From positions 1 through 34,104 of the IMG/VR virus record IMGVR_UViG_3300032286_001767: DNA of 34,104 bases, one strand, 5' to 3'. Both the position numbers and the translations under genes were made by a program. The stretch comes from a virus. Positions within the stretch are counted from its first letter, which is position 1; the number at the start of each line of letters is the position of its first letter. The notes beneath the pieces are model-generated. The model made no database searches. It worked only from the letters and a program-made list of their open reading frames with translations, and was not told the origin of the DNA. Shown piece by piece: positions 12,798 to 34,104 of the stretch.

Positions 12798-13243
12798 CAG
12801 ACAATAGAGCGACCGAGCAGGATCCGGTCCCGCATGTCGGCCAAGGTCAGGCCGGTTTTCCACTGCACGTGCGGTTCGTCGACGAATTCCCAACTACCGC
12901 CCCACTCAAGCTGTGGGAATCGGGCCACCACGGAGCCGATTTCCTTGTAGAGAGGGCTTTCCTCCAGGTAATCCACCCCCTGGAACAGGCCGATGTCCAC
13001 GGCAATGCCGAAGTTGTGGTTGCTCTGGCCACCGCGCGCCTTGGTCCGGATCGGACCCGGCTTGGTGCGGCCCTGCGCATAAAGCGCCTCCTGCTCGGCA
13101 AAGGATCGCGTCCCGCTGATGTACTTGGGCACCACGCAGCGCGGCGCAAAGTGCTCCTGCAGCGCCTCGAGGAGCTTGGAAAAAACGGGCTGCACCTTGG
13201 GCAGCAGGGTCTCGATATTTTTTTGCGAGCGGGGATCGATCAT
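12797..13243 (-). CDS. M15-family peptidase, phage endolysin
   Basis: This 148-aa enzyme should cut peptide cross-links or stems in peptidoglycan (D-Ala-D-Ala or L-Ala-D-Glu bonds, as in T5-type endolysins). The zinc site is visible: SNHNFGIAVD (the SxHxxGxAxD motif, His and Asp ligands) and DEPHVQW towards the C-terminus (third His ligand with the catalytic acidic residue). No signal peptide is seen, so release needs a holin; membrane-protein candidates lie just upstream. ATG at 13243 begins the recognisable domain; longer frames would run through the phrase-repeat leader. It is the last gene of the late operon and ends at the bidirectional terminator. Confidence 0.85.
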   Translation of the reverse strand: MIDPRSQKNIETLLPKVQPVFSKLLEALQEHFAPRCVVPKYISGTRSFAEQEALYAQGRTKPGPIRTKARGGQSNHNFGIAVDIGLFQGVDYLEESPLYKEIGSVVARFPQLEWGGSWEFVDEPHVQWKTGLTLADMRDRILLGRSIV

Positions 13244-14678: not shown

Positions 14679-14700
14679 GCGTTCCATCGGGCGCGGGGTG

Positions 14701-16140
14701 TCAAAGCTGAATGAATGGTGGCAGTCCGATCAGTTGGCTAAGATTGATTCCCGACTGAGAGCCACCTCCACCAGAGGAGAGTGAGAGCTGCTGCCAGCCA
14801 TAGCCAAGATCAGGGCGACCTCCGACGGTCCAACCACCCGTACTCACGAGTTGCCAAAGCGATCCGTTCAGAGCAACAACCGCTCCTTGGCCGTAGTAGG
14901 CGTAATTATCCCATTCCTGGGGGATCGGGGTTTCAGCCGAGAGGGTTCCCATCAAGGGCGCATTGGGAAAGCCATAGACAACACCCGCTTGAACTTCGCT
15001 TTCAGCAGGAATCACGACAACGCTTTCGCCATTGACCCAAACATCGCCACCCCAAATGCCAGTTCCATTGGGCCAAGCATATGAGATAGTTCCGCTTACT
15101 GATCCACCGAGAGGATTTTGTGCAGGGTAATAAACGTAAGCATTTCCAGTAATGCTTCCAGAATTGGAGGATGTTCCTTTAAATGTGCAATTTCCTGTAA
15201 TGCTTCCAGAATTAGAGGCAGTCCCATTAAATGTGCAATTTCCAGCAACACTTCCAGAGTTAGAGGCATTACCAATAAATCTGCAATTTCCAGTAATGCT
15301 CCCTGCGTTGGATGCATTACTGATGTAAGCACTTTCACATACCAAAGATCCAGATGTGACATCTTCTGTAAGATAAACAAATGAAGAGGAGTCGGGTAGA
15401 GATGCCGCGGGAATAGTAAAACCATTATCTTCCCACCAATTAGACAATGATGACAGATTTCCTCCACTAAAATAAAGTGCATCAAATGGATATGTTAAAC
15501 CATTTTCGCTGTTGTATAGTCGAGTTATCTCTGCTCCAGAAAGAGCGCGACTCCACACACCAAGCAAATCAAGGCGACCATTTGCCGCAAATGCAGAGGT
15601 ATCTTGAGGTCGTCCAATATAATAAAGACCTTGATTGAAATCATAATTCCAAGCCCCTGTTCCAACAATCACTCCATTAACATACAATGAAGCAGTTCCA
15701 GACTCCCTAGTAATAGTAACTTGATGCCACGCATCAAGTATGGAAGAACCAGCAGTATATGTTATTGGTTCATTAAAACCACCTAGAAAAGCGGAAATAA
15801 AATCAAATCCATAATTCAAATGAAAACCATTTTCATAGGGCCATATCCCCCACGCTAAATAAACTTGGTTTCCATCTTGCGCAGATGTTGGATATATCCA
15901 AAAATTAACTGAAAAGTCTCCGTATCCAAATTGGAAGGCTCCTTCTCCTGAGGCCGGCTGCAAAACATTTGCTCCATCCAACAGAAACGAAAGACCGCCA
16001 TCAACTCCTTCGGCTGAACCAGCCGTTCCTTGAACGACAGCAAGTGTATTCCCTAGCCCTGTGTCATCAGTTAGGCTCGCCCCACCAGAACCATTATCGT
16101 TGAAGTTCCAATATGCTAGGATGTTGTCATTAAGAGCCAT
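14701..16140 (-). CDS. Tail fibre/receptor-binding protein: LamG, repeats, chitin-binding-like domain
   Basis: This 479-aa protein probably sits at the tail tip and binds the host surface glycan. Residues 1-215 are a LamG/concanavalin-like lectin domain (opening YWNFND, a WHQVTITR core and a DLLGVWSRALS end). Residues 275-338 are four 16-residue repeats (SGSITGNCTF-type) typical of a beta-helix. Residues 408-452 (EWDNYAYYGQG, SLWQLVS, GWQQL) resemble a CBM5/12 chitin-binding module. The middle of the gene is clearly AT-richer than its neighbours, a sign of exchange. It lies at the distal end of the tail genes, where receptor-binding proteins are usual. Its TGA is part of a TTTGACAC string before the next gene. 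Confidence 0.75.
   Translation of the reverse strand: MALNDNILAYWNFNDNGSGGASLTDDTGLGNTLAVVQGTAGSAEGVDGGLSFLLDGANVLQPASGEGAFQFGYGDFSVNFWIYPTSAQDGNQVYLAWGIWPYENGFHLNYGFDFISAFLGGFNEPITYTAGSSILDAWHQVTITRESGTASLYVNGVIVGTGAWNYDFNQGLYYIGRPQDTSAFAANGRLDLLGVWSRALSGAEITRLYNSENGLTYPFDALYFSGGNLSSLSNWWEDNGFTIPAASLPDSSSFVYLTEDVTSGSLVCESAYISNASNAGSITGNCRFIGNASNSGSVAGNCTFNGTASNSGSITGNCTFKGTSSNSGSITGNAYVYYPAQNPLGGSVSGTISYAWPNGTGIWGGDVWVNGESVVVIPAESEVQAGVVYGFPNAPLMGTLSAETPIPQEWDNYAYYGQGAVVALNGSLWQLVSTGGWTVGGRPDLGYGWQQLSLSSGGGGSQSGINLSQLIGLPPFIQL
15127..15318. repeat. Four 48-base tandem repeats in the tail fibre gene
   Basis: Four tandem copies of a 48-base unit encode the 16-residue motif NxSNSGSITGNCTFxG with a few substitutions. 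Copy number can change by recombination, which may tune fibre length or specificity. Confidence 0.7.
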
Positions 16141-16395: not shown

Positions 16396-16409
16396 GACGA
16401 GTCCCTCAT

Positions 16410-16560
16410 GTCAAAGAAGCCCCCGGGAAGAGGTGAGTAAGACTATTTCGACAGAAATAGCCCGGACGGGGGCACCACTTTGCGGCAGCAAAGTGCCGTC
16501 AAAAAAAGGGGGCGGCGAAATCGGCAGACAAACAAGCCACCTCAACGCTGCGCCGAGATC
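16410..16560 (-). other. Structured intergenic element B
   Basis: On the plus strand: GTCAAA (16410-16415), a long-range GCCCCCG/CGGGGGC stem (16419-16425 with 16467-16473), GTAAGAC (16437-16443), a CTATTTC/GAAATAG hairpin (16443-16460), a CACTTTGC/GCAAAGTG hairpin (16476-16495) and GCCGTCAAA. ATCGGCAGACAAACAAGCCA follows near 16520-16539. Element C contains the same 20-base string. It fills the gap between the glycosyltransferase stop and the ribosome-binding site of the next gene. Confidence 0.6.
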
Positions 16561-17589
16561 CTATACCGACACAAACGTCTGCTGCCTCTGTCGGAGGTGT
16601 CCGTAGTAGGCAGGGTCCTGCTCATGCCATGCGCGGTGGTGGATGATCTTCTCACCCTGCCGCTTGATATGGTCGCAAACAACGTGCGGAACGCAGGCAA
16701 TCCGCAGCCCAGCAGGCTTCCACCGAGACCAGCAGAGGAACAGATCCTGCGTCCCCTTGCCCTCATAGCCGGTGAAGTCACAAAGCTGAAGTGCCTTGGC
16801 CGAGAGCAGGGTGCAACCGAGGCCGCACCAATCCGACGGCACAACGGCTCCAAGGCCGATGCCAGGATAGGCATGATCCATCCACCCCCTGCGCCGCCAC
16901 CCATGCTTTGCCGTCACCTCCCAGATATTTCCGTCCGGTGGCGATTTCTTCACGCATTCACGGAGCCGCCCCATGCGGCGATGCTCGCGTTCAAATGCTG
17001 AAGCCTGTGACTTGAGACCTGACGCATGGATGAACTTGATCCGCTCCTCGCATTTCTCCATCAGGAGCTTGAGGCGTGGCTTGAGCTTCCTCTCGCTTGG
17101 CAGGAAATCCTCTGCGATCTGGTGACGGTAGTCTCCAAAGCCACCGAGGAAAAGACCGTTTGGATAGGTTGCTGCCGCGATGTGGTAGAACGGATCACCG
17201 CAGGCATCGGGCATCTGGAGCGTCCATTCCAGCACCCGCAGAGCGTCTGCCGTCGGGATTGTGTCACTCTCGACTGACCAGCATTCGGTCGCCTTGATCC
17301 TGCGGGCAAAATCAAATGCTGCACCCTGGAGGCGGGCGATGCGGATCTGTGCCTCTTCCTTGTAGTCCTTGGCATCTTCCTCGATGGGAAGTCTCAGTGT
17401 CGTGATCTTCCACCCCTCTGGCAGATGCCCCTTGGCAAACTCCGACGCTGCCTTGGATTCCTCACTCTGGTCTGTCGCAAAGATGAAGTGAGCATCCGTG
17501 TGATGGGAAGCCGCCGTTGCCACCGCTCGGATTAACTGCGGCCATGCGTGGAGATAGCTGCGAGTAGCAGCCGTGACGATGGCAATCAT
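16561..17589 (-). CDS. Glycosyltransferase-like protein, 342 aa
   Basis: The N-terminus is a Rossmann-like strand pattern (IAIVTAATR), and an ESDT segment (about 107-110) sits where GT-A enzymes have their metal-binding DxD. The C-terminal part (about 265-320) follows the GT2 pattern: a conserved Gly-rich LLSAKAL segment, a GKGTQDLFLCW acidic catalytic segment, G-L-R-I, then a CDH. It should transfer a sugar from a nucleotide donor. The start overlaps the previous structural gene by ATGA, so it is made with the tail proteins. It may glycosylate a phage structural protein or remodel the host envelope; the acceptor is unknown. Confidence 0.65.
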   Translation of the reverse strand: MIAIVTAATRSYLHAWPQLIRAVATAASHHTDAHFIFATDQSEESKAASEFAKGHLPEGWKITTLRLPIEEDAKDYKEEAQIRIARLQGAAFDFARRIKATECWSVESDTIPTADALRVLEWTLQMPDACGDPFYHIAAATYPNGLFLGGFGDYRHQIAEDFLPSERKLKPRLKLLMEKCEERIKFIHASGLKSQASAFEREHRRMGRLRECVKKSPPDGNIWEVTAKHGWRRRGWMDHAYPGIGLGAVVPSDWCGLGCTLLSAKALQLCDFTGYEGKGTQDLFLCWSRWKPAGLRIACVPHVVCDHIKRQGEKIIHHRAWHEQDPAYYGHLRQRQQTFVSV

Positions 17590-19055
17590 ACAACGGCAAC
17601 CACGCTGGCCGTATTGGCCCACCATCCCCTTGGAGAGATCACCATGACTTGATCCGTGGCGAGACTTGTGGAGAAGGTCTGAGGCGTGAAGGGATCGTCG
17701 TTGAAGTAGGTGGAAACAGTGGAACTGGACCCCGTTCCCGCATAGGTCGTGGCCGCTAGGATTCCGGACCAATCGAATGAGACCGACCCGCCAGAAAATG
17801 CCGTCGAGCTAAATGCACGGGTCGTCGTGTAGGTAATGGCTGGCGGTGCCGATGCAAAGGACTCTGACAATGAAATCTCTGCCGAGCTTTGTTTCACTAT
17901 GGTGCTGCCGCTTGACTCTGAAATCTGAGTCCAGAAGAGGGTCTTGCCGGAAATACTTGCCCCAAAGAGATCGTCAGGGATCGTGTAAAACCCTTCAAAG
18001 GCTGCGGGCTTTCCTCCAAAGTAACCCAAGGGTGAACTTTCAAACGGCAGGAAGGCGATGCCGGACTTATAGGTAGCACACGGGAAAAACCAAAAGGCAT
18101 CTGAAGGAGGCGTAGCAGGAAGATCAAACCCCCAGCACCATGTCTCTCCTCCAGAATCATCCAGGAATGCCACCGGAGATCCAGCAGCCGTGGTTGTGCT
18201 GGTAAATGAAGCGGAGAACGGATCACTCATGATCCCATCAGTCCATGAAAAGAATGTAGACGATGTGGTCGTTGTCTCCGATTCCTCTGCGTATCTTCCC
18301 CCGCCATCAGGTGTTGCAAGAATAAATGATTTCTGTTCTCCGGCTCCGACGAAATACTCGCTAGTCTCTGTGGCCGTCGTAGCGATTTGGATGGCCCTTG
18401 AGGTGGCTCCCTTTTCTGCGCCAGAGATAACAAAGAGAACCGGCACGTTGGCCCGATAGCTGCGATCATTGGGCGCATCCGTAAAAAAAGCTTGTTCCAC
18501 TACGCCGCCTACATACGCCGCAGCCTTAACTGAGGAAGCCGAGGCAGGAAAGACTGTCCTCGTCTTGGTGCTGGAATCGTAGGATTCAGGGCCAACAATA
18601 AAACTATAAAAAGTGATATCTGATTTGAGTGTCGGCTGGGAGAATGTCTCAACCTGATATGTGTAGGAATCGACCGTAGAAACATCGGAGAATCTCCCAT
18701 ACGTAGAAGAGGGAAATGTCGAGAGTTCTCCATAGGCAGTGAATCCCGTGGCATCCCCTGCCGTAATCGTCTGCTCGTAATAGGACGAGGTTCTCTGCGT
18801 TGTCGTGGTTTGCGAATCCGCCACGTCCCCCGTGCTACCATTGGCCACCGTAAAGGAGGCAAAGAGATTGTAATCAAGAACAACACCAACCCCGTCCCGA
18901 AAGCTCCATGAAAATCCGGTAGTCTGACTGCTGATCTGAGGAACCAAAAAATTATCATTCGGGCCGGCGACGGAAGTTGTAGCGGTCTTGGTCGAGTATG
19001 CGGCCCCCTCATAGGTTGAGGAGGTAGACCTCCCAAGATTGTCAACAATCAGCAT
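17586..19055 (-). CDS. Ser/Thr-rich structural protein of the tail tip, 489 aa
   Basis: A large protein extremely rich in Ser, Thr and Ala, with many short predicted beta strands and few charged residues. Such composition is common in phage fibre and tip proteins and in glycosylated proteins. No family is recognised. It lies in the tail-tip cluster and overlaps the glycosyltransferase by ATGA. A Ser/Thr-rich target next to a glycosyltransferase makes it a plausible substrate, by inference only. Confidence 0.65.
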   Translation of the reverse strand: MLIVDNLGRSTSSTYEGAAYSTKTATTSVAGPNDNFLVPQISSQTTGFSWSFRDGVGVVLDYNLFASFTVANGSTGDVADSQTTTTQRTSSYYEQTITAGDATGFTAYGELSTFPSSTYGRFSDVSTVDSYTYQVETFSQPTLKSDITFYSFIVGPESYDSSTKTRTVFPASASSVKAAAYVGGVVEQAFFTDAPNDRSYRANVPVLFVISGAEKGATSRAIQIATTATETSEYFVGAGEQKSFILATPDGGGRYAEESETTTTSSTFFSWTDGIMSDPFSASFTSTTTAAGSPVAFLDDSGGETWCWGFDLPATPPSDAFWFFPCATYKSGIAFLPFESSPLGYFGGKPAAFEGFYTIPDDLFGASISGKTLFWTQISESSGSTIVKQSSAEISLSESFASAPPAITYTTTRAFSSTAFSGGSVSFDWSGILAATTYAGTGSSSTVSTYFNDDPFTPQTFSTSLATDQVMVISPRGWWANTASVVAVV

Positions 19056-19058
19056 GAC

Positions 19059-19619
19059 TTACCACCTCCAGAGGTAGTAGTTGCTGCCAGTGCTGGAAAA
19101 CGCAGGCACCGGATAAGGCGTCAGCCAATTTGCACCGATAAAGTTGAAGCTATTGCCATCCGCGTCGACCATTCCGATCAGGATCTTGAGCGAGGCGGGT
19201 GGATAATTTTCAGAGGCAGTCTGCGGTGATGGGGTCGTTGTTCCGCTTGAGAGCGTCACCCCCGTGATGTTCCCACTGCTCGAGGTTATCTCAGCCCACA
19301 CATAAATGTCGCCTGATGAATAGGAGATCTCATCAAATATATTGTCAGGCAGGAATCCCGCTACAATACCGGGCACTACCGTAATGTTCTGCTGCCCTTC
19401 TTCACCAGCGCCCAAGATGAGATCAAAGGGAATCTTGAGTTGTTTTTGTGAATTCCTATCAACAATGATACTTTGCCCACTCGGCGAACTCGATACTCGG
19501 CATCCAATCCCGGGCTGTATCCGAGCTTCGCGGAAATTTTCATCCAACACGGGTGCAATTTGCTGATTCCATGCAACCGAGAAATCACCAGTTCGGGAAA
19601 TACGGGGAAGGCGCTTCAT
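19059..19619 (-). CDS. Tail-tip structural protein, 186 aa
   Basis: Predicted beta-rich, with Ser/Thr/Gly runs and an aromatic C-terminus (NYYLWRW). It starts MKRLPRISRTGDFSVAWN and is separated from the next gene by only 3 bases. Not matched to a known family; placed in the tail-tip cluster by position. Confidence 0.6.
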   Translation of the reverse strand: MKRLPRISRTGDFSVAWNQQIAPVLDENFREARIQPGIGCRVSSSPSGQSIIVDRNSQKQLKIPFDLILGAGEEGQQNITVVPGIVAGFLPDNIFDEISYSSGDIYVWAEITSSSGNITGVTLSSGTTTPSPQTASENYPPASLKILIGMVDADGNSFNFIGANWLTPYPVPAFSSTGSNYYLWRW

Positions 19620-19623
19620 GAAT

Positions 19624-20259
19624 TTAGTGGCTGGAATAAAAATCAGGATCCCACGGGCCTCCTGAGCTCGCCCTGTAGTCGCTCGTCACAAACCATAGAT
19701 AAGGGCCGATCTGCTCACTCTCCATGCCGGCCAGCAGCCAGTTGCACCGATCTGGCAACCCGGGAGAATATCCCCCCGGAAGGGAGGAGTATGTTTTTGC
19801 AAGATTGCCGAAATCCGGCTTCGAGGTCGCAAGGGCCGTCTGCTTGGCCGTCACCACAGGAGCAAGCCAGGAGTCTGTACCCCAGAGCGCAAACTGCGCA
19901 TACCAACCAAGCGGAGAAGTAGGATCCGCCGCAACGTACTTTTTCCAAAGAGTCGCATCACTTGTAGCCTCAGCAATCTTTTCACAATCGCCATCACTCA
20001 GCTCATGACTGCCTCCGGCGCGGAACACCCCATGGGTCAAGAGCGGCTGCGTCTCCACCTGACTGGAAATCTTGGGAAGATTCGTCTGGCCCAGTTGCGT
20101 CTTGTAGCTGACGGTGTAAAGTCCCTCTGAATACCCTTGGGAATGTTCCCAGCTGGCGTTCGGATAATTGGGAGCATATTCCTTATCGACCAGCGTGATC
20201 GATCGCACCAGGGCGCCCAGGCGTGAGTCAAAACTGTCGGTATGGCTCGACTGATTCAT
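19624..20259 (-). CDS. Minor tail protein, 211 aa, paralogue of the next gene upstream
   Basis: This protein aligns over much of its length with the 232-aa protein encoded upstream. QPLLTHGVF...HELSDGD matches QPIIDNALF...YALSDDD, and the spaced LLAG and GPW/GPK regions also correspond. The two genes are adjacent, overlap by ATGA and probably arose by tandem duplication. Start at 20259 is chosen from this overlap. The function is unknown; they lie between the tape measure and the tip proteins. Confidence 0.65.
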   Translation of the reverse strand: MNQSSHTDSFDSRLGALVRSITLVDKEYAPNYPNASWEHSQGYSEGLYTVSYKTQLGQTNLPKISSQVETQPLLTHGVFRAGGSHELSDGDCEKIAEATSDATLWKKYVAADPTSPLGWYAQFALWGTDSWLAPVVTAKQTALATSKPDFGNLAKTYSSLPGGYSPGLPDRCNWLLAGMESEQIGPYLWFVTSDYRASSGGPWDPDFYSSH

Positions 20260-20954
20260 GAGGATTGCCCTCCGCCTGACCCACTGCCGTAGAGTGTCAC
20301 GCTCCACCCTTTCGGGCCACTTCCTCTCCAGTCACGTGTCACCCTCCACTTAGGATCAGGCGACACCGGATCAGCATGCACACCAGCCAGAAGAAACGTT
20401 GTCCCTGCAGGCATGATGGGAATCACTCCCGCAGGCGTCCCGATTTTCCCAACTTCTAAAAGATCGGGGATTACCCCTTCGTCCGACGTTGCCTGCAATG
20501 TCACCGAGGGAAGCAAATAAGATTCCTGACCACGCAACCGCTTTTTTGCATAGAAAGCCAGCGCTGCGGAGGAAGATTTGGATAGCTTGATCCATTGAAC
20601 AAGATCCCCTTCAGCTCGTTGAATTTTTGTCTTATCATCATCACTGAGCGCATAGGTGCCTTCGGGCTGAAAGAGCGCGTTGTCGATGATCGGTTGCGGC
20701 TGGCAAATGCCGTGAGCAATCACCCCCGGATCAGAAGGAGCGGCAGACGGAGTTCCAGAACCAAATCCCGATCCATCCGCATACTGCCGCCATGTGTGCC
20801 GACGCTCCGCATCCCCCACCCTCACGCTGTATTCCATGGCACCGGATGGGGGACTGAAATTACCCGTGAAATCACGCACCGTCAGCTGCTCGATGTAGGC
20901 ATTGAGCCTGGGATCCCAGACTTGCTCACTCTGCGCGTAGGTAGGGCCGCTCAT
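20256..20954 (-). CDS. Minor tail protein, 232 aa, paralogue of its downstream neighbour
   Basis: This protein follows the tape measure gene and probably forms part of the distal tail. ATG at 20954 is chosen; the TTG at 20972 is less likely. Its central and C-terminal segments are recognisably related to the next protein (see the paralogue entry), including a conserved LSDDD segment and a LLAGV box. Its C-terminus ends in a Gly/Ser-rich stretch. Confidence 0.65.
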   Translation of the reverse strand: MSGPTYAQSEQVWDPRLNAYIEQLTVRDFTGNFSPPSGAMEYSVRVGDAERRHTWRQYADGSGFGSGTPSAAPSDPGVIAHGICQPQPIIDNALFQPEGTYALSDDDKTKIQRAEGDLVQWIKLSKSSSAALAFYAKKRLRGQESYLLPSVTLQATSDEGVIPDLLEVGKIGTPAGVIPIMPAGTTFLLAGVHADPVSPDPKWRVTRDWRGSGPKGWSVTLYGSGSGGGQSS

Positions 20955-20972
20955 GTCACGATGATCCGGCAA

Positions 20973-22670
20973 TCACGGCGACGCGTGGGCATGACCCACC
21001 GGAGGGGCCCCCACGATCCGGGTGACGAGTTGCTGGACGAGCTGGTTGGTCTGCTGATGGGCGGCCAGTTGCTGGCGCTGAACATCCCCCAACCCAAGAA
21101 AAACGCTGTAGCCGCCGCCTCCGACCTTGGCAAAGCTGTCGGCAATGATCTGCCCGTGGGATTGACCGATCGCAGCCGGGTCAAACTGAGCATTGGATCC
21201 GGGCTTGGGAGCATTCTTATCTGCATCCGCGCGGCCCTTTTCGTTGGCTTTATTTGTTAATTCTGTCGGCGTGAAGGACCCGAATTTTATTCCAGCAGCA
21301 GCCCCGGACACTTTGGATCTCAAATCGGCGATCTCATTTCCTAAAACCGAGCGGGCGTCGCGGTTGGCGGCAAGATTCACATCCACCGTGCTCGTCCCAC
21401 CTTTGCTGTTTTCGGCAATAATTTCTTCGATGGATTTGGTATCCAGTTTGCCGTTGTTGTTGATTTGACTCTGAATTTCGCCGCTGAGCTTTTCATATTT
21501 CGCCCCCAATTCTGACTGTCTGTCAGCCTCTGCGAGCATCGCATCCCGTTTTTCACGATCAACACCTGGAGCGAAAGCGGCATTCCTTAGTTCATGCGAT
21601 TTGTTAGTTGCATCGACACCTTTGTCAGTAAGAGAAAGCATCTGCTTTCCCATTTCTTGAACTTGCGACTTACTGAGTCTGCCAACACCCATGGCATCGT
21701 GGATTTGATTAACCCTTTTCTCAATCGTAGCCCCGAAGTACTCAAGCGGTACCCTGAAGGCTTCAAGAAGCGCATCCTTCAGCAGGCTTGCTGCATTCAC
21801 TAACTCTAGCCCGAATAATTTTATTCCATCACCGGATAATGCCACTCCGATGACCTGTGAAAGATCGGACAAGAGTACTTTGGATGCCGCCCTCCAATTC
21901 GTCATGAAATTACCGATCACCGCACCCAATCCAGAGCCAATACCGGAAAGGTCCATTTTTTCAAATTCCTGAATCGCGTTATGTAGCAGCGGCACAAACT
22001 GCGAGTTCATCCCCACGAAAAATCCCGTCATCTTGCCCCCCACATGGCCCAGCGCATTGCTGGCCTCCGAGAAGCTCGAGGCATTCTGGCCCAGCAGCTT
22101 GGCCGTGTTGCTCAGGTTGCCGGCCTCCGCGAATGCAGGATCCATGAAGACCTGCAGCAGCTCGCCGCCCGATTTTCCAAAAATCTGCATGGCTGCCGAT
22201 GCCCTCTCGACGCTGTTGGGCAACTGCGCGATCCGCGCCCCAATGGCCTCAAAGGCTTTGCCCGAGTCCATCGATGCCAGTGCCTGCGGATCCAGGCCCA
22301 TCGCTTTGAGCACATTGCCTTCCGAACCTCCCGACGCCGCGGAGGCCAGTGCCTTTTGCATCGTATTGATGGCGGGACCCAGCTTGGAGGCGTCGACTCC
22401 CGTGTCCTTGAAAATCTTGCGCAGCATGTACAGGTCCTGCACCGCCACCCCCGTGCGGGCGCTCAGGTCCTGCATTTCACTCCCAAGATCCACGCCTCCC
22501 TTGATTCCACGCATCACCCCATCCACGCTGACCATTGCCGCCGTCACGGCAGCAATCGGTGCCAGCATCTCCTTGAAGGCTCCATGGATTGCGGACTTTG
22601 CCCCGTTGACGGCCCTGTGAAAGCCGCTCGCGTCTAGTCCCAGACTCCACTCGATTTTTCCGGAGGCCAT
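20973..22670 (-). CDS. Tail tape measure protein
   Basis: This 565-aa protein sets tail length and is injected or released at DNA entry. The N-terminal 200 residues (SLGLDASGFHRAVNGA, MRGIKGGVDLGSEMQDLSARTG, a LYMLRKIFKD helix, then AIGARIAQLPNSVERASAAMQIFG) match the conserved start of phage tape measure proteins. The rest is helical, with a hydrophobic central part. At about 565 residues it is short, so the tail should be correspondingly short for a siphovirus. It lies downstream of the tail chaperone frameshift pair, with one 275-aa gene between them. Confidence 0.85.
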   Translation of the reverse strand: MASGKIEWSLGLDASGFHRAVNGAKSAIHGAFKEMLAPIAAVTAAMVSVDGVMRGIKGGVDLGSEMQDLSARTGVAVQDLYMLRKIFKDTGVDASKLGPAINTMQKALASAASGGSEGNVLKAMGLDPQALASMDSGKAFEAIGARIAQLPNSVERASAAMQIFGKSGGELLQVFMDPAFAEAGNLSNTAKLLGQNASSFSEASNALGHVGGKMTGFFVGMNSQFVPLLHNAIQEFEKMDLSGIGSGLGAVIGNFMTNWRAASKVLLSDLSQVIGVALSGDGIKLFGLELVNAASLLKDALLEAFRVPLEYFGATIEKRVNQIHDAMGVGRLSKSQVQEMGKQMLSLTDKGVDATNKSHELRNAAFAPGVDREKRDAMLAEADRQSELGAKYEKLSGEIQSQINNNGKLDTKSIEEIIAENSKGGTSTVDVNLAANRDARSVLGNEIADLRSKVSGAAAGIKFGSFTPTELTNKANEKGRADADKNAPKPGSNAQFDPAAIGQSHGQIIADSFAKVGGGGYSVFLGLGDVQRQQLAAHQQTNQLVQQLVTRIVGAPPVGHAHASP

Positions 22671-22676
22671 GGTCTT

Positions 22677-23504
22677 TTAAGCTTTGAGCCCGCTGCGCTT
22701 GTGCAGCCGCTCCTCGTAGTGGCGGATCTGTTTCTCGATCTGTCTGGTCTGCCAATCCACGGCGTATTGCACGCGGCGCTGCAGGTCGCTCACGTTGCTG
22801 GCAAATCCAGCCCCGTTGGTCGCACGCACCGTCACCCCGACCGAGGTCTGGCGGAATTCACAGGCGCTCGGGCAACCATGCCCTCGCATCCACTTGGCCA
22901 TGCCAAAGCCGAGCACGTCGGCGGTCTTTTCCCAACCGCTGACCAGGAAGCCGACTTTCTTGGCCACCATCTTGTAGTATTGGTCAAATTGCTTTTGCGA
23001 CACGATGCCGAGATCGAGTCCGGGCAGATCGCGGAAACGGATGCCCGTAGACACGGAGCGGTGCACGTTCATCGTGCGGCCTTTGGCAGTGCGGCGAGCC
23101 TGGTGCCATGCCTTGAGCGACGCCGTCGAAGTCAGCACCTTCTCGGTCACGTTGCCGATCGCCTTGGCTCCGGCATGGCCAAACTTGGCCGTATTCCCTC
23201 CCGCCCCGTAGAACTCGAGAAACTTAGCGATATTCTCGGGCTTCATCACATAGAAGATCCTCAGCAGATCGGTGAGGATCGCTTTTTTGCCCACCGCCTC
23301 GGCCTTCTTGCCCATCACCATGGATGCGCTGTCGTTCTCCTTGGTCCGGTAGAATCCCGCAGGCGGTGTCACCGCGATCACGTTCTTGGCAATCAGGCGC
23401 GCCTGCTGCTTCATGTAGACACCGCGGTCTTTTTTCCCATTGGCCAGATACCGGTCGACGGCGCCAATGAAATCGTTGGTTTTCAATTTCATGGTGACGC
23501 TCAT
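22677..23504 (-). CDS. Tail-associated protein, 275 aa
   Basis: A basic, helical protein between the chaperone pair and the tape measure; I do not recognise a family. The C-terminal 60 residues form an amphipathic Gln/Arg-rich helix. ATG at 23504 has GAGGA about 8 bases upstream; the in-frame ATG at 23492 has none. It is preceded by structured element D. Position suggests a tail assembly or minor tail component. Confidence 0.65.
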   Translation of the reverse strand: MSVTMKLKTNDFIGAVDRYLANGKKDRGVYMKQQARLIAKNVIAVTPPAGFYRTKENDSASMVMGKKAEAVGKKAILTDLLRIFYVMKPENIAKFLEFYGAGGNTAKFGHAGAKAIGNVTEKVLTSTASLKAWHQARRTAKGRTMNVHRSVSTGIRFRDLPGLDLGIVSQKQFDQYYKMVAKKVGFLVSGWEKTADVLGFGMAKWMRGHGCPSACEFRQTSVGVTVRATNGAGFASNVSDLQRRVQYAVDWQTRQIEKQIRHYEERLHKRSGLKA

Positions 23505-23533
23505 TCGTTCTGGTCCTCGTCTTGCCAAGCGGT

Positions 23534-23663
23534 GTCAAAACGTGGCCGGTGGTGACCGGCCCGGTTAGACTGCCGCAGGCAGCCCCGAGCGAAGAGCGAG
23601 CGGGTGAGCCGAGCGGGAGCGAGCGAATCAAACAAGCCGCCAGCAGGCGGCGCTGCGCCCACC
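23534..23663 (-). other. Structured intergenic element D
   Basis: Plus-strand order: GTCAAAA (23534-23540), a GGCCGGT/ACCGGCC hairpin (23544-23561), GTTAGAC (23564-23570), a CTGCC/GGCAG hairpin with GCA loop (23570-23582), then a long GAGCGA-rich stretch, ATCAAACAAGCC (23627-23638) and a GCC/GGC hairpin. It lies between the chaperone fusion stop and the next gene. Confidence 0.6.
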
Positions 23664-24367
23664 TCACACCTCCTCGTCATCGTCCAATCCCAGCCACTTC
23701 ATCTGCCCGACGACTTCCCTGATCTCCACCATTGCAGGGGCTTTCCTTGATGACGGAGGCACGGTCCAGAGATCGTGACTCCGCAACGCCGCGTGGTAGT
23801 ACTGCAGCAGCCGCGCAAAGGGGATTTCCCACAAAAGCTCGCGCTCGGGCCAGCCCGTCTCTTTCGCCAGCGTGAAAATCATGCTGGCAATCCAGACGGG
23901 CTCTAGCAGTTTGGGGGTGCGCTCTCCTGGCTTGTTCCCGCCGTCGGCTTGGGCTCCACGGCTACGGCGCTCGCCCCCACTTGCTGGCAAAGGCTCGTGA
24001 TTTGCTCCATCGCCGAGGCAAAGATCGTCGGAGACAAGGTGAAGGCAAAGGCATCCACCGCCGATCGGAATGCCTCGTCGTTCCCGGAGGCAATGAGCAC
24101 TTCGGTCATCGGCGCGGCATGCAAATAGAGGAATGCCGTCATCTGCCACAACTGATCGGCCACGGTCGTCTGAAAAATCTGCCCTTCCATCGGGAGATCC
24201 GGATCGATGTCGGGGGCCTCGCCCGTGAACATGGTCAACCCGCGGCGTTGGCAGATGAGATAACTCCCCGCCGAAAAGGGGCGCAGCTTGAGCCCGTTCA
24301 TGTCGGTCACTTCAGGGGTGAGGAAGGCCCCGATTTTCACATCGTCCTCGGCTGTGCTTTTTTTCAT
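23664..24367 (-). CDS. Tail assembly chaperone fusion G-GT (programmed -1 frameshift)
   Basis: The shorter 154-aa frame (23903-24367) is the G-like product. Just before its TAG the mRNA reads CCCAAAC at 23915-23909, and a -1 slip places the ribosome in a frame that continues to 23664. This gives a GT-like fusion of about 234 aa whose extra part (TPKLLEPVWIASMIFTLAKE onward) is a separate helical domain. Such pairs recruit the tail tube subunit during assembly and are absent from the finished virion in lambda. Tail-tube candidates lie upstream and the tape measure lies downstream, which is the expected order. The frameshift rate cannot be read from the sequence. Confidence 0.8.
23903..24367 (-). 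CDS. Tail assembly chaperone, short G-like form, 154 aa
   Basis: The unshifted product of the chaperone gene. It opens with a charged MKKSTAEDDVKIG segment and has a helical core. The start overlaps the previous stop (24364-24367, ATGA). Its last codons contain the slippery site, so the short form is the default product and the fusion a minority. Confidence 0.75.
   Translation of the reverse strand: MKKSTAEDDVKIGAFLTPEVTDMNGLKLRPFSAGSYLICQRRGLTMFTGEAPDIDPDLPMEGQIFQTTVADQLWQMTAFLYLHAAPMTEVLIASGNDEAFRSAVDAFAFTLSPTIFASAMEQITSLCQQVGASAVAVEPKPTAGTSQESAPPNC
23909..23915 (-). other. -1 ribosomal slippery heptamer CCCAAAC
   Basis: In the zero frame the codons read CCA AAC TGC TAG, preceded by a C, giving the canonical X-XXY-YYZ heptamer C-CCA-AAC. 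After a -1 slip the tRNAs re-pair with CCC AAA and translation bypasses the TAG 3 bases later. Lambda uses GGGAAAG at the equivalent place. Confidence 0.8.
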
Positions 24368-24831
24368 GATACGTGCTTGAGCAGTCGCTCGGCCTCCTCG
24401 TCGGGCACTAGGCTGCCATCTTCGGCCACCTTGGTGGTCAGATTGTAGGTCATGCCACCTCGCGTGATGCGCACCTGCGGGCTCTGCGAGCGGATCTGGT
24501 CGCGCATCTCATCAAGGTTGCCCTGGTAAGCGCGCATCCAGGCTATCGGGTGATCGGGGTGAGCCCGGCACCAGGAAAGGTCTTTCCAGCGTTTGAGAAA
24601 CTCGCCCGTCGTGATCGTCTCACCGGCAATCTCGATTTTCTTATCCTCCAGCAGCCAGGTCACATTACGCACCGTACGGCCGTTCTCCTGGCGCACGGTG
24701 TGCGTGTAGCCCCCGGGCTGGGCAAGCGCTCCTCCCGCCGTGAGCAGTGCCGTGACGGCCTGCGTATTGGGTGATCGGAGCGGATTCTCCTCGTCGCGGA
24801 GAAATTGGTAGGTGGAACCTTTCTTGATCAT
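24364..24831 (-). CDS. Hypothetical tail-region protein, 155 aa
   Basis: A mixed helical/beta protein with a short hydrophilic N-terminus; not recognised. It overlaps the chaperone gene by ATGA and follows the tail-tube candidates, so it probably belongs to tail assembly. Confidence 0.65.
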   Translation of the reverse strand: MIKKGSTYQFLRDEENPLRSPNTQAVTALLTAGGALAQPGGYTHTVRQENGRTVRNVTWLLEDKKIEIAGETITTGEFLKRWKDLSWCRAHPDHPIAWMRAYQGNLDEMRDQIRSQSPQVRITRGGMTYNLTTKVAEDGSLVPDEEAERLLKHVS

Positions 24832-24852
24832 GAAGACTGTGAAAAAGCGCTC

Positions 24853-25164
24853 TTAGGTTGCCGCCGGGAAGATCTTCCCGCTGACTTTCCATTGCCGATG
24901 GTCGTCGTTCTTGGCCATGGTGCCGTAGCTTTCGACGATCACTTTGCCGCTCGCGCCGTCAAAACTCGGCGCCGCGGCAAACGAATAGGGATTGGTACCG
25001 TAACCTTCCGCCGAGAAATCAAAGGTAGGGTCAAAAGATGTTCCCCCGCCAAACGAACTGTTGGCATTGACGTAGGTCTTGGTCTCGATTTTTTCAGTCA
25101 AGGTGACTTTGGTGGCAGACGAGTCAGCCAAAAGGGTGATGCCGATGGAAAAGGAAGCGCTCAT
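24853..25164 (-). CDS. Tail protein, 103 aa, possible tail-tube subunit
   Basis: A small beta-rich protein with few Cys and high Ser/Thr/Gly content. It lies 3 bases after its upstream neighbour, is of nearly equal length and may be a distant relative: both have a C-terminal pattern of alternating hydrophobic strands around a short acidic turn. Position before the chaperone pair suits a tail-tube subunit. Not assigned by family. Confidence 0.55.
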   Translation of the reverse strand: MSASFSIGITLLADSSATKVTLTEKIETKTYVNANSSFGGGTSFDPTFDFSAEGYGTNPYSFAAAPSFDGASGKVIVESYGTMAKNDDHRQWKVSGKIFPAAT

Positions 25165-25167
25165 AGG

Positions 25168-25476
25168 TTAGCTCCAGCTGACGAGTTCAAGTTTGAATTT
25201 GGGATAATCCTCCGCCGAGTCGTCCTGCGACTGAGACGTGATCACCAGCGTGCCAGCGGAGATAGAGGCCGCCGCCTCCAATCCCCACGAAGGGTTGCCA
25301 ATCCCGGATACGGAAACTTTCCGCTCTTTCATGAGCATCGGATCCGCACCGACGGTCACACCCATCTCATCGCGGTAGGTCTTGATCTGCTGGGTGTGCT
25401 CGTCCGACCATTCGTTGACCACCGAGCTGCCGGGCGCGGCAAAAGGACTGGAGGCGGCTCCGAAGGTTGCGCTCAT
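25168..25476 (-). CDS. Tail protein, 102 aa, possible tail-tube subunit
   Basis: A small soluble beta-rich protein (MSATFGAASSPFAAPG start) without recognisable motifs. It follows structured element C. With the next gene it forms a pair of similar-sized tail genes upstream of the chaperones, where the major tail protein is expected; one of the two is the likely tube protein. Confidence 0.55.
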   Translation of the reverse strand: MSATFGAASSPFAAPGSSVVNEWSDEHTQQIKTYRDEMGVTVGADPMLMKERKVSVSGIGNPSWGLEAAASISAGTLVITSQSQDDSAEDYPKFKLELVSWS

Positions 25477-25538
25477 AGAAAAAGGGGCTGAAGGATGAAT
25501 GCTGAAGGCTGGAGGTGCTTCATTTCCATGAGTGGCGT

Positions 25539-25712
25539 GTCAAAAGACGCGCTGGGAGCGCGTCTTAGTCATTCGAGGCGATGAGCCGAGAAGTCCCGAG
25601 TCAGCAGACGAGGTATGCCTGATCCGGGAGGATCGGCAGACAAACAAGCCATCTCCCGCAGGGCGTCCGCCTAGGCGGACTGCCGGGAGGCAGGTGCCGT
25701 CAAATGAGCGAA
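25539..25712 (-). other. Structured intergenic element C
   Basis: Plus-strand order: GTCAAAA (25539-25545), a GACGCGCT/AGCGCGTC hairpin (25546-25564) extendable by two A-T pairs, TTAGTC, ATCGGCAGACAAACAAGCCA (25632-25651), a perfect 16-bp palindrome (25665-25680), a CTGCC/GGCAG hairpin (680-693) and GTGCCGTCAAA. The last 25 bases are identical to element A. It fills the gap between two tail genes. Confidence 0.65.
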
Positions 25713-26117
25713 TCACACAAACTGAACGCCAAGCCGCACCGCCACCTCAACGTCCCATTGGTCGTTTTGTTGCTTGCTCGTCCCGGTGCGCACAAACAAA
25801 CCCCCGAATGCTGGAGAGCCTGACGGCCACCCCGCCGCAAAATCCGTTGAAGTCAGCGCGGCCTGGACGCTTGCAATCGAGGATTCCAGATCCCCAAAGA
25901 CTTCCGCTCCATACAACGCCGGACCGATCAACCGGATCGTCGCCTCAGCCAGATAGAAGCCCCCTGCCTGATGCTGCAGATCATCCACCGCCGCCACGAT
26001 ATTGAGACTCTCGGGCTGCGTGATGACGTAGCTCGTGCCCGTGTAGATGGTCACTCCGCTAGGGAAATAGGGAGTCAGGGCGGTCTTGAGCGCGGATTCG
26101 ACGGCAAGGGTATTCAT
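25713..26117 (-). CDS. Minor tail protein, 134 aa, tail-terminator candidate
   Basis: The start MNTLAVESALKTALTPYFPSG and the alternating beta pattern that follows resemble the tail-terminator/completion proteins (gpU-like family) that lie between connector and tail-tube genes. ATG at 26117 begins the natural domain; an upstream extension of the frame to 26459 overlaps the previous gene. Not assigned by close homology. Confidence 0.6.
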   Translation of the reverse strand: MNTLAVESALKTALTPYFPSGVTIYTGTSYVITQPESLNIVAAVDDLQHQAGGFYLAEATIRLIGPALYGAEVFGDLESSIASVQAALTSTDFAAGWPSGSPAFGGLFVRTGTSKQQNDQWDVEVAVRLGVQFV

Positions 26118-26160
26118 GAAAGCAGGGATGAAGGAGGAAACCTGAGACCTGATAAGTGAT

Positions 26161-26484
26161 TCATTGCCACTCGGCCTCGGCAATGTGCTCCGCTGCCAGG
26201 GCGCTGGAGTTGGCAGGCACCACGCCCCGGATGACGTAGGTTTTTCCGCTGGCCACGTCCTTGACAGTCTCCAGCACCGCCGGTGCCGGACTGATCGTTC
26301 CCGGAAATCGCAGACGCCAGCTTTGCTTCTGCGAAAAACCACCGCTGGCCAGATCGAGCGACGGAGGCGCGGTCGAGATGCGCACGCGGATCTGATGCCC
26401 ACGGAAAAGCACGAGCTGACCCTGAAGGTCGGCGGCCATGGCTGCCCCACGGGCCGCAAAGCGCTGGGTCTGGTTTCGGTTCAT
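26161..26484 (-). CDS. Head-tail connector candidate, 107 aa
   Basis: A basic, beta-rich protein whose size and position resemble lambda gpFII-type head-completion proteins. The N-terminus has a KQ/R-rich segment and the middle carries two hydrophobic strands around a PPSL turn. Family not certain. A strong terminator hairpin lies directly upstream. Confidence 0.6.
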   Translation of the reverse strand: MNRNQTQRFAARGAAMAADLQGQLVLFRGHQIRVRISTAPPSLDLASGGFSQKQSWRLRFPGTISPAPAVLETVKDVASGKTYVIRGVVPANSSALAAEHIAEAEWQ

Positions 26485-26497
26485 GGTAGGTGGGTAG

Positions 26498-26537
26498 CAA
26501 AAGGCCCCGCCGAGGAACCTGGAACCTCGACGGGGCC
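26498..26537 (-). terminator. Strong intrinsic terminator inside the late operon
   Basis: On the minus strand, GGCCCCGTCGAGG pairs with CCTCGGCGGGGCC (13 positions, one mismatch) around a short loop and is followed by TTTT. It lies between the 59-aa gene and the connector gene. It would lower expression of downstream tail genes relative to capsid, or need anti-termination. Confidence 0.7.
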
Positions 26538-26557
26538 GCTTTGCCGATGGGGAAGAA

Positions 26558-26737
26558 TTATTTGGCGGCCTTCTTCGCCGAGCGGAGCTGTTCCAGCTCG
26601 CTCAGAAGCGCCGTGTGCTCGTCGTGCAGTTCCTTGAGCAGGATCACATGCACCGCCGGAGCAATGGTGCAGCCCTTGCCGATCTGCTCGTGGAGCTCTC
26701 GCACGCGCTGGTAGGCGCTTTTGCGGTCGGTGGCCAT
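26558..26737 (-). CDS. Small coiled-coil protein, 59 aa
   Basis: A short, all-helical, charged protein (start MATDRKSAYQRVRELHEQIG, end LRSAKKAAK). It follows the capsid gene at about 70 bases. Not recognised; it may be a head-decoration or assembly factor. The gene is too short to stand out in long-frame surveys but has a clear ATG and TAA. Confidence 0.55.
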   Translation of the reverse strand: MATDRKSAYQRVRELHEQIGKGCTIAPAVHVILLKELHDEHTALLSELEQLRSAKKAAK

Positions 26738-26805
26738 GATCGGGTGTGAGTGGCGACCGCCCCGCCGTCATCTTGCGATGAGCGGCGGAGGGTCTAAGAT
26801 CACTC

Positions 26806-27723
26806 TTAGGCGCTGGCGAGGACGACGCCGTTGTTGGCGTTGCCCACCGCGTAGCCCTGCAGCCAGCAGAGGCGGTAGTTCACCGAGAGGTCGCTTGCGA
26901 TCCACTCGTTGACCATGAGGCGGAAGCCCGTCTTGGAGTCCTCGATGAAATCGATGATGCCGGGGAACTTCGCACCCTGGCTGACTTCCTCGGGGCTCTT
27001 CGGAGCGCGGGCCGCGTAGACGGTCGCGTCGGGAGTCCCGGCGAAACCGATGCGGTTCGTGCTGCCGAGCGCTCCAAGGGTCGGGTATTTACCGATCTGG
27101 AGGCCGTCGACCGCTGGGAGCTTGCCGGTGCGGATCGCCTCGGCGTTGGCCGGGTTGTTCAGCGCGGCCACGATGATCGGGTCGGCCAGCAGTCCGTAGT
27201 AGGGGGAGCTGAGCACCGCGTAGCGCTCACCCTGCGGGATCGCAGTGGCGTCGCTGGTGCCGTCCATCGCCTGCGTGAGGGGCAGGGTGAATCCGGCGCG
27301 GGTGTAGGTGGAACTCACGAACTTCCTGGAGTAGTTCGTGGTGTTCCAGAGAGAAGCCACGCTGTCGACGATGTGGTTCTGGATCGCGGTGGCGATCGGC
27401 TCGGCCTGCTCGCGGATCAGGTCACGGTCGGTCGAGTTGTACTGCGCGGCCGTGAAGTTGCAGTGCACCTGCTTGAACTGGTTCAGGACGATGGGCACAT
27501 CGGTCGTGACGGCATCGCTCGGGGCGTCACCGAAGTTCTGAACCGCAGGGATCGAGCGCGTACGGGTGTACACGGTCTGTCCGAGCTTGGCATTCTCGAC
27601 CTTGCCGTCGAGATCCTGGAAGCCGAAGCTGATCATCTTCAGCTCGGGACGGGTGGCGAAGGTAAGCTGGAGAGCCTCCTGGAGGATCAGATTACCGGCT
27701 AATTGACCGAGATTGTTGGCCAT
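26806..27723 (-). CDS. Major capsid protein candidate, 305 aa
   Basis: It lies directly after a scaffold-like coiled-coil gene and a protease gene, the usual place of the major head protein. Composition is typical for capsid proteins: Ala/Asn/Gln/Thr-rich, few Cys, mixed helix and strand, start MANNLGQLAGNLILQEALQL. I recognise no diagnostic motif beyond this, but no other protein in the window fits the role. It should form the icosahedral shell with an HK97-type fold. Confidence 0.8.
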   Translation of the reverse strand: MANNLGQLAGNLILQEALQLTFATRPELKMISFGFQDLDGKVENAKLGQTVYTRTRSIPAVQNFGDAPSDAVTTDVPIVLNQFKQVHCNFTAAQYNSTDRDLIREQAEPIATAIQNHIVDSVASLWNTTNYSRKFVSSTYTRAGFTLPLTQAMDGTSDATAIPQGERYAVLSSPYYGLLADPIIVAALNNPANAEAIRTGKLPAVDGLQIGKYPTLGALGSTNRIGFAGTPDATVYAARAPKSPEEVSQGAKFPGIIDFIEDSKTGFRLMVNEWIASDLSVNYRLCWLQGYAVGNANNGVVLASA

Positions 27724-27782
27724 GGGAGTAGGTGGTTGGGTGTGGGTTGGGTGTTCGGGTGGTGAGGCGTGTCAAATCGCGA

Positions 27783-28352
27783 TCAGTCGAGGAGCAGGTC
27801 CTTGTGCTTGGCGTAGAAGCGGGCGCGCTCGGTCGCATCGCTGAGCGAGTCGTACTGGCGGCGGAGATCCTCTTTGCTCCCGGCGACTCCCGTCGGGGAC
27901 TCGTCACCCGTGGGCACGGCGGCGGAGGCATTGATGCCTTTGACCTGGCAGAGCTTCTCGAGGCGGGTGGAGTTCTCGGAGGCCTTCACCGCGCGCTCTT
28001 CGGCGGCGGTGCGGGCGCTCTTCTCGCCCTCGAGCTCGGTGCGGACGGCAGCCAGTTCCTTGCCGGCCTTGTCGGCATTGGCCACGGCCTCGTCGAACTG
28101 GCCGCGGATCGTATCGCGCTCGGTCTCGAGCGCCTTCAGCGCCTCGGCATGGGCGGTCTCCACTCCGGCGAGCTTTTCCTCGGCGGCCTTGAGCGCGGTC
28201 TCGCGCTCGGCGAGCAGGGCGGTGGCTTCCTTGAGGGTTTTGGGAATGACGGGTTCGGTCGCTCCGGAGCCCGCGCCGTGATCGGCGGAAAGCATCGGGA
28301 AGCGTGCGGCGGAATGGGCGGCAATAAGGCCCAGGAGGATGGAGTTTCTCAT
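27783..28352 (-). CDS. Scaffold-like coiled-coil protein, 189 aa
   Basis: Residues 40-135 are a long heptad-rich coiled coil, followed by a short C-terminal region with a YDSLSDATERARFY segment. Position between protease and capsid, size and composition fit a head scaffold, analogous to lambda Nu3 but as a separate gene. GGAGGGAG lies just before the ATG. Structured element A lies in its leader. Confidence 0.7.
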   Translation of the reverse strand: MRNSILLGLIAAHSAARFPMLSADHGAGSGATEPVIPKTLKEATALLAERETALKAAEEKLAGVETAHAEALKALETERDTIRGQFDEAVANADKAGKELAAVRTELEGEKSARTAAEERAVKASENSTRLEKLCQVKGINASAAVPTGDESPTGVAGSKEDLRRQYDSLSDATERARFYAKHKDLLLD

Positions 28353-28369
28353 GACTCCCTCCCGCCGTT

Positions 28370-28464
28370 GTCAAACAAGCCCGTGGGAACGGGCGCGTAA
28401 GACTACGGCGCAGCCGTAGCCCGAAGGGCGGCACAGCCTGCCGGGAGGCAGGTGCCGTCAAAAC
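28370..28464 (-). other. Structured intergenic element A
   Basis: Plus-strand order: GTCAAACAAGCC (28370-28381), a GCCCGT/ACGGGC hairpin (28379-28394), GTAAGAC (28397-28403), a CTACGGC/GCCGTAG hairpin with GCA loop (28403-28419), a GCCC/GGGC hairpin, a CCTGCC/GGCAGG hairpin (28437-28452) and GTGCCGTCAAAA. It fills the gap between the terminator after the protease gene and the scaffold gene's ribosome-binding site. It is the clearest copy of the four. Confidence 0.65.
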
Positions 28465-28502
28465 AAAAACCCCTCGCTGCGCGCGCAGCGAAGGGTTTTT
28501 TT
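28464..28502 (-). terminator. Terminator hairpin after the protease gene
   Basis: The CGCTGCGCGCGCAGCG palindrome flanked by AAAACCCCT and AAGGGTTTTTTT is nearly identical to the terminator at 12763-12797. It stands between the protease and scaffold genes inside the late operon, so it may attenuate rather than stop transcription, or mark a separate transcript start downstream. Confidence 0.7.
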
Positions 28503-28515
28503 CAAAGTGGACTCT

Positions 28516-34091: not shown

Positions 34092-34104
34092 GTGTCAAAA
34101 TGAC
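34092..34104 (-). other. Truncated intergenic-element-like end (TTTTGACAC)
   Basis: The last 13 bases read TTTTGACAC on the minus strand, upstream of the small terminase gene. This matches the ends of elements A-D. The rest, if present, lies outside the window or, if the genome is circular, at position 1 onward, where no continuation is obvious. Confidence 0.35.

Follow-up and report, generated by a model that had tools for sequence, protein, structure and literature searches.

Two palindromic repeat families shared by phages and a Verrucomicrobiota clade, and a start-associated TTTGACA motif in the phage late operons

Four gaps (A to D) between the late genes of the IMG/VR virus record IMGVR_UViG_3300032286_001767, whose whole stretch of 34,104 nucleotides was analysed here and is called the window, carry hairpins and short motifs in a common order directly ahead of the next gene. 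What are these elements? A preliminary description of the window offered three options: a regulatory RNA, an RNA-processing site or a mobile palindromic element. Judging from sequence comparisons, we favour a form of the third. With a probability of about 0.72, the four elements would be phage-resident copies of two non-autonomous host repeat families that resemble repetitive extragenic palindromic (REP) sequences and bacterial interspersed mosaic elements (BIME), lodged directly 5' of an independent late-gene start signal of the phage, TTTGACA. Copies in bacterial chromosomes are called host copies below.

Two types of element in four gaps

The late genes lie on the minus strand, and those recognised in the window encode the terminase, portal, head protease, major head protein and tape measure. 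The ordered signals reported for this transcribed strand were found in all four gaps, in elements of two types. Type 1 (about 89 nt) comprises copies D and A, with B as a degenerate variant, and type 2 (about 110 nt) is represented by copy C, which also contains a type-1 fragment; both types have four hairpin arms. The scores given below come from two covariance models, R1 for type 2 (8 seed sequences) and R2 for type 1 (12 seed sequences).

28468..28504, minus strand: intrinsic-terminator-like hairpin, CCCTTCGCTGCGCGCGCAGCGAGGGG plus a T run, immediately upstream of copy D (repeat family D9)
28373..28461, minus strand: copy D, complete type-1 palindromic element (R2 112.3 bits, window E 2.5e-26; a seed of that model)
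28369..28375, minus strand: 3'-terminal TTTGACA of copy D; the ATG of gene 28352-27783 lies 16 nt downstream
25642..25703, minus strand: first part of copy C, partial type-1 element (R2 18.9 bits; first arm equal to that of D over 25 nt)
25536..25644, minus strand: second part of copy C, complete type-2 element with arms P1-P4 (R1 120.3 bits, E 4.2e-29; one of the 8 seeds)
25538..25544, minus strand: 3'-terminal TTTGACA of copy C; gene 25476-25168 (MSATFG...) lies downstream
23539..23631, minus strand: copy B, degenerate type-1 variant (R2 16.1 bits, E 0.014 in the window)
23533..23539, minus strand: 3'-terminal TTTGACA of copy B
16520..16532, minus strand: fragment TTTGTCTGCCGAT upstream of copy A, a type-2 5' end by sequence identity with the type-2 start
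16413..16502, minus strand: copy A, complete type-1 element (R2 78.4 bits, E 5.7e-18; one of the 12 seed sequences)
16409..16415, minus strand: 3'-terminal TTTGACA of copy A; the ATG of gene 16395-16186 lies exactly 13 nt downstream

The arms of copy D are GGCA-CCTGCC/GGCAGG-TGCC, GCCC/GGGC, TACGGC/GCCGTA and GCCCGT/ACGGGC. Copy B has a TTTGATTCGCTCGCTCCCGCTCGGCTC module in place of the first arm, together with CTGCC/GGCAG, GTCTAAC and GGCCGGT/ACCGGCC, and R1 gave a partial match spanning the region of copy A (16407-16532, 10.6 bits). A stretch of 25 nt is 100% identical between copies C and D, and not, as first described, between A and C; the latter pair shares the 20-base identity ATCGGCAGACAAACAAGCCA, which had been assigned to B and C.

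Motif counts were compared with dinucleotide shuffles of the window (n = 100). The string CAAACAAGCC is exact in all four gaps (16529, 23629, 25641 and 28372) and, if one mismatch is tolerated, the window has 8 sites where 2.1 are expected; TTTGAC occurs 26 times against 13.0 expected. Neither count was reached in any of the 100 shuffles. GTCTWAC, which had been listed among the signals of every gap, is present in copies A, B and D only, a count that by itself is not above chance (3 against 2.3 expected); copy C, being of the other type, has ATGACTAAG instead.

Covariation and the nature of the palindromes

Eight distinct type-2 copies fold to one four-armed shape, in which 13 of 35 pairs changed on both sides. 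The covariation score of 0.367 compares with at most 0.059 for slid structures, and none of 500 column shuffles reached it. Under the assigned structure 98.2% of the cells pair, a share that is partly circular because the structure was taken from one member sequence, whereas the compensatory changes are not. For type 1 (D, A, relatives and host copies), 15 of 26 pairs changed on both sides and the score is 0.400 against at most 0.093 for slid structures. The covariation first noticed is strong in both types. Folding energies were below those of shuffled sequences for most copies (z -2.4 to -4.6; -1.2 for one copy with an insert). Searches against Rfam returned 0 matches at the gathering score in the window and, for the elements in six loci, none even at an E-value of 1, in line with the earlier remark that no described family of this layout was known.

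The conserved motifs had been taken as unpaired. Their conservation stands, but in phage copies the GTC of GTCTWAC, on the 5' side, can pair with the GAC of TTTGAC, and the two motifs are likely opposite strands of one closing stem. The type-2 element of copy C, closed in phages by GTC/GAC, is backed by compensatory changes.

The kind of substitution found in the arms bears on whether selection acts on RNA. Across arms P1-P4 of the host copies (n = 83) we counted 2174 Watson-Crick, 39 G·U and 35 C·A cells; a tRNA control, very small, gave 4 against 0. A G·U cell on one strand is C·A on the other. Selection on one RNA strand should yield G·U far in excess of C·A, and a near-equal ratio points to a palindrome at the DNA level. 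The bias of the covariance search, which favours G·U, runs against this result. From the ratio, which is indirect evidence, we infer that the palindromes arise or are maintained as DNA. Covariation above controls, as expected of a structured cis-regulatory RNA, is present, and the RNA type of substitution (G-U tolerated, C-A not) is absent; this speaks against the specifically regulatory RNA suggested initially.

Related phages and bacterial chromosomes

Scanning viral contigs with the terminase recovered four close phages (L018-L021; 87% and 75% identity) and four distant ones (L022-L025; about 47% identity). The head protein and portal as probes recovered no relatives in viral contigs, the terminase alignment had no match when scanned against genomes, and the window had no DNA match in the phage GenBank collection. 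The equivalent gaps of the close phages hold elements that are related to those of the window but not the same: gap D has a D-like element in L019, L020 and L021, a C-like element replaces it in L018, and L021 has both. A second search pattern yielded additional phages. Recurrence before late genes in related phages, which the preliminary description had proposed to check, was found. Exact matches of TTTTGACGGCACCTGC in viral contigs were mostly due to chance, in terminase-like coding sequence, and those of TTGTTTGTCTGCCGAT were genuine copies in this phage group alone, the others being chance.

A gapped pattern of C-type arms matched one contig among 84,980 bacterial and archaeal genomes. This contig of 35.7 kb, from a metagenome-assembled genome (MAG) of an uncultured Spartobacteria, encodes a diverged terminase (29% over residues 389-685) and carries two C-type elements, of which one follows the terminase gene immediately. 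The strict pattern had made type 2 appear to be confined to phages, a view that the covariance model overturned. Over 388 genomes sampled across the phylum Verrucomicrobiota, R1 was positive in 3; over 37 relatives of one positive genome (G352), it was positive in 16, with 1-28 copies each and a single weak match in a few. R2 was positive in 15 of those 16 genomes (3-126 copies) and gave three weak matches, in two genomes, among 17 others. Both repeat families are interspersed repeats of one Spartobacteria-related Verrucomicrobiota clade and neither is specific to phages, so the single phage family first envisaged gives way to two types that bacterial chromosomes share; the proposed check for the same elements in host genomes found covariance-model matches to both. 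Type 1, the family of copy D, is contained in host genomes, and a module similar to that of copy B was found in host intergenic DNA (L158 and L166). The Spartobacteria-related clade probably includes the hosts of these phages.

Host type-2 copies stand between ordinary genes (after rpsT, before alaS, between pdhB and pdhC, after smc; gene names were read from protein starts), and 5 of 74 lie inside a predicted open reading frame. The gene upstream of a copy is on the same strand in 43 cases and on the opposite strand in 18 (p 0.002), a bias towards the 3' side of genes that is REP-like. In a weakly resolved tree of type-2 copies, the smallest clade holding all 10 phage tips comprises 43 of the 55 tips; at this poor resolution the phage copies were not recovered as a single clade.

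Mobility of the repeats

At host loci L155, L156, L158, L161 and L143, type 2 is nested in type 1 at the same internal position, and in L099 three type-2 copies follow one another head to tail. Phages provide an empty and a filled site with similar flanks: TTTGACA stands alone at position 12654 of G2, and a type-2 element ends exactly at TTTGACA at position 7872 of G16. The site matching copy C in L018 (11251) also has TTTGACA and no element. In the host gap between pdhB and pdhC, an element is present in G009 and absent from 12 relatives. Nested and tandem copies, together with presence or absence at orthologous sites, indicate that type 2 is or was mobile, and with the interspersed distribution they make a mobile palindromic element the best of the three options originally listed.

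Several observations weigh against the proposal of host repeats lodged in a phage. The pdhB-pdhC gap also turns over fast in other ways and is no clean empty site. No mobilising enzyme was found: the Y1 transposase (PF01797) was absent in 3 of 3 carrier genomes (G352, G009 and G388), with control genomes positive, and a REP-associated tyrosine transposase (RAYT) was rejected as the mover for the same reason. The ends form no terminal inverted repeats, and no target duplication was recognised on reading; the type-2 ends TTTGTC.../...CCTTTT and the type-1 ends TTTGACGGCA.../...CTTGGTTC differ in this from those of miniature inverted-repeat transposable elements. The probable link between phage and host is drawn from repeats common to both and from a single phage contig within a Spartobacteria MAG. 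Finally, the consistent phage-type ends (GTC/GAC closing, TCTTAC...GTTTGAC) could reflect a selected function rather than passive insertion.

The pdhB-pdhC gap (L195-L206) is different in nearly all the genomes compared and holds other short families of repeats, which are CGCGGAGGCGCAGAG-like. An antisense type-1 phage copy (G4 19191-19282; L041:6792-6883) has the host-type end GGCTTGGTTC and is apparently an undomesticated insertion.

A start-associated motif independent of the repeats

Near gene starts of the close phages no 7-mer is more enriched than TTTGACA (16 genes, 1.5 expected); in the distant phages and the Spartobacteria phage contig the leading motif is TTGACA. We took a census in ten non-redundant phages (240 kb), counting as starts the codons that open at least 60 codons. 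The 67 sites divide into 66 sense and 1 antisense; 21 of the 67 lie exactly 13 nt before a start and 33 at 10-17 nt, compared with 293 of 5308 sites at 10-17 nt for all other permutations of the seven letters pooled. No TTTGACA peak before starts was seen in 381 kb of host DNA, the motif was absent at 80 genes of the Spartobacteria MAG, and it was not enriched in Akkermansia phage Moulinsart. With no enrichment at host genes, a host-wide start signal was discarded.

Although TTTGAC had been described as part of the element, it terminates 23 of 23 sense-strand phage repeat copies and only 3 of 74 host type-2 copies (Fisher p 2e-19, where copies from one phage or genome are not fully independent). 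A third of the sense sites (22/66) stand directly behind an element and 44/66 have none. TTTGACA is a start-associated motif of the phages, independent of the repeats. The TTTGAC strings noted earlier before genes 27723, 31405, 14687 and 34079 are present, at 27771, 31412, 14700 and 34094, and three lone sites of the window illustrate the arrangement.

34093..34099, minus strand: lone TTTGACA (TGTCATTTTGACA), no repeat element; the GTG of gene 34079-33375, itself upstream of the terminase, lies exactly 13 nt downstream
27770..27776, minus strand: lone TTTGACA, no repeat element, upstream of the major head protein gene 27723-26806, with a leader of 46 nt
14699..14705, minus strand: lone TTTGACA, no repeat element, upstream of gene 14687-14451

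The fixed distance of 13 nt suggests a role in translation initiation. Some sites are found 39-57 nt upstream of head-protein starts, and these, with the terminator-like hairpins directly ahead of the D-gap elements, found in L018, L019 and L021 as well, suggest promoters with short leaders. About 6 of 22 listed 13-nt spacers contain GGAG, GAGG or AGGA, so many such starts have no obvious Shine-Dalgarno sequence. The exact complement TGTCAAA occurs at position 441 of the host 16S rRNA in G414, and also in G416; as 26 of 420 motif permutations likewise have a complement in 16S rRNA, pairing is a lead only. More speculatively, TTTGACA-N13-start might be a signal used only by these Verrucomicrobiota phages for Shine-Dalgarno-independent late expression, possibly through 16S pairing, with mobile palindromes of the host domesticated as movable insulators before it; we hold this tentatively and would expect it to fail sooner than to hold. 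Our literature search returned nothing relevant on the TTTGACA motif or on Spartobacteria palindromes. The head-protein leader between TTTGACA and the ATG (27724-27769 in the window) is C/A-rich and unstructured, likewise in relatives.

Proposed mechanism and alternative explanations

We propose that the repeats spread via some enzyme or recombination in the form of DNA hairpins, single-stranded or cruciform, that they land in short gaps of the late operon, and that they persist where they come to lie just 5' of an intact TTTGACA. Hairpins at gene starts would punctuate transcripts and insulate the upstream message, and TTTGACA would drive the next gene, acting upstream as a signal for translation initiation or else as a late promoter with a short leader. 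The abutment of repeat and motif could stem from insertion beside the T-rich motif, from the loss by selection of insertions that disrupt this motif, or from a phage-adapted version shuffled among phages.

One branch of this explanation overlaps with a rival in which the cassette itself is the functional unit: the hairpins would end the upstream transcript, and TTTGACA would be the core of a late promoter from which the next transcript starts a few bases downstream, in the manner of the PeSL cassettes of T4-type phages (see below) or of the late promoters of T4, which have a -10 element only. Such a terminator-plus-promoter cassette would account for a motif that is specific to the late strand and independent of the repeats, for the sites 39-57 nt before some head-protein starts, which a translation-only signal leaves unexplained, and for the terminator-like hairpin that immediately precedes the D-gap element of the window and those of L018, L019 and L021. 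The exact 13-nt spacing, however, would be less usual for a promoter than for an initiation signal, a second conserved box was not found within 30 nt upstream, and a search for a phage sigma factor, which was not exhaustive, identified none. We consider the cassette possible, and the weightiest of the alternatives. A cis-acting structured RNA in the late mRNA leaders, domesticated from host repeats and controlling the translation, stability or processing of the next gene, would fit the strong covariation of both types, the low folding energies of most copies, the extra closing stem UGUC/GACA with an adjoining AC/GT pair kept in phages, and the 23/23 sense copies that finish on one motif ahead of the following gene. 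It is nevertheless unlikely: host copies have as few G-U as C-A cells, with no strand preference, two thirds of the TTTGACA sites have no element, corresponding genes occur both with and without one, and arm number and type vary among copies.

The direction of transfer could also be reversed, with elements born as regulatory cassettes of phages and bacterial copies spread from prophages. Phage copies do score best and keep the closing stem, a result biased by models that were built mainly or partly from phage copies. Bacterial genomes, on the other hand, hold up to 126 type-1 copies, host type-2 copies sit among ordinary genes (see above) and are without TTTGACA, and phage copies are scattered among host copies in the weakly resolved tree, all of which makes this direction very improbable. 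We give least credence to integron-like attC sites, or other sites of site-specific recombination, serving to swap late gene cassettes. The known attC 5' consensus is RYYYAAC, which GTCTAAC of copy B fits; the ends are conserved around a variable palindromic body, and modules switch at element positions (type 2 in L018 where L019 and L021 have type 1). But the 5' box fits copy B only, the 3' end TTTGAC does not match GTTRRRY, the elements stand before genes and not at cassette ends, and host copies have no attC-type ends.

Comparison with known systems

The two repeat families and the start motif resemble known kinds and do not make up a categorically new system. PeSL (promoter early stem-loop) elements of T4-type phages, mobile regulatory cassettes reportedly described by Arbiol and colleagues in 2010, are said to combine an intergenic stem-loop with an expression signal before phage genes and to be linked to module shuffling. 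The elements of the window differ in phage group, sequence and number of arms, TTTGACA is a putative promoter, and the hairpin families also occur in host genomes.

The nearest published parallel is the start-associated sequence and its extended form (SAS/ESAS) of cluster K mycobacteriophages, a short oriented motif associated with starts, with an optional upstream inverted repeat and of unknown function (PMC3203893). In both cases a short asymmetric motif lies immediately before starts, almost always in one orientation, and is conserved before unrelated genes of related phages; here the strand ratio is 66:1, the distance peaks at 13 nt, and 22/66 sites have inverted-repeat elements upstream. 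The SAS/ESAS 13-mer GGGATAGGAGCCC is unrelated to TTTGACA with its 13-nt peak, and the palindromes upstream of the latter are multi-arm interspersed repeats of host chromosomes.

Like REP/BIME sequences of the GTAG and CGTC super-families (PMC3733652), the repeats are multicopy, intergenic, mostly downstream of genes, composite and non-autonomous. GTAG repeats are known from the Verrucomicrobia species O. terrae, and for CGTC palindromic repeats a transposase is likewise not known (PMC3733652). The units here measure 89-110 nt with four arms, compared with 20-40 bp for REP; no constant GTAG or CGTC tag was recognised, GTAG occurring only within a variable arm of some type-1 copies; and no RAYT was found in three carrier genomes, while copies also stand in phage late operons at gene starts. 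CGTC repeats have a CGTC/TGTC tag beside an 8-9 bp stem, and arm P3 is preceded by AGTC on the other strand, a feature read unsystematically. Given the differences in tag, unit size and RAYT, the families are REP/BIME-like in behaviour only.

They constitute two new palindromic repeat families common to phages and to a bacterial clade that is represented here by genome assemblies alone; shared repeats of this kind offer a sequence-based host link for otherwise unassigned phages. The ratio of G·U to C·A separates covariation that looks like that of a regulatory RNA from a mobile palindrome at the DNA level. The fixed spacing of TTTGACA, which spans phages with terminases about 47% identical to that of the window and one with 29% over its best-matching part, amounts to a testable claim on how late genes are started in these phages.

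Other features of the window and its relatives

Near-identical terminator-like hairpins with the palindromic core GCTGCGCGCGCAGC occur at 12763-12799 and 28468-28504 of the window (core also at 4199-4224), and relatives have different perfect palindromes, CTACACGTGTAG and CTGCACGTGCAG, at the position of the terminator-like hairpin. In the D gap of L019 a tRNA-Met gene (L019:9872-9946) lies directly before the terminator and the D-type element, and the D gap of L021 holds an apparent tRNA remnant. Short tandem phrases (GAAACCT, CTTCAGCC) are found in intergenic positions 14385-14418, 26119-26152, 5716-5744 and 25486-25514 of the window; host intergenic DNA has the very similar phrases CAGGTTTCAGGTTTCATCC and CAGCCTTCAGCCTAAACC, and further small host repeats may thus be common to both. 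Direct repeats of 48 bp lie at 15142-15316 within gene 14701-16140, which has a Laminin_G_3 domain and probably encodes a tail fibre.

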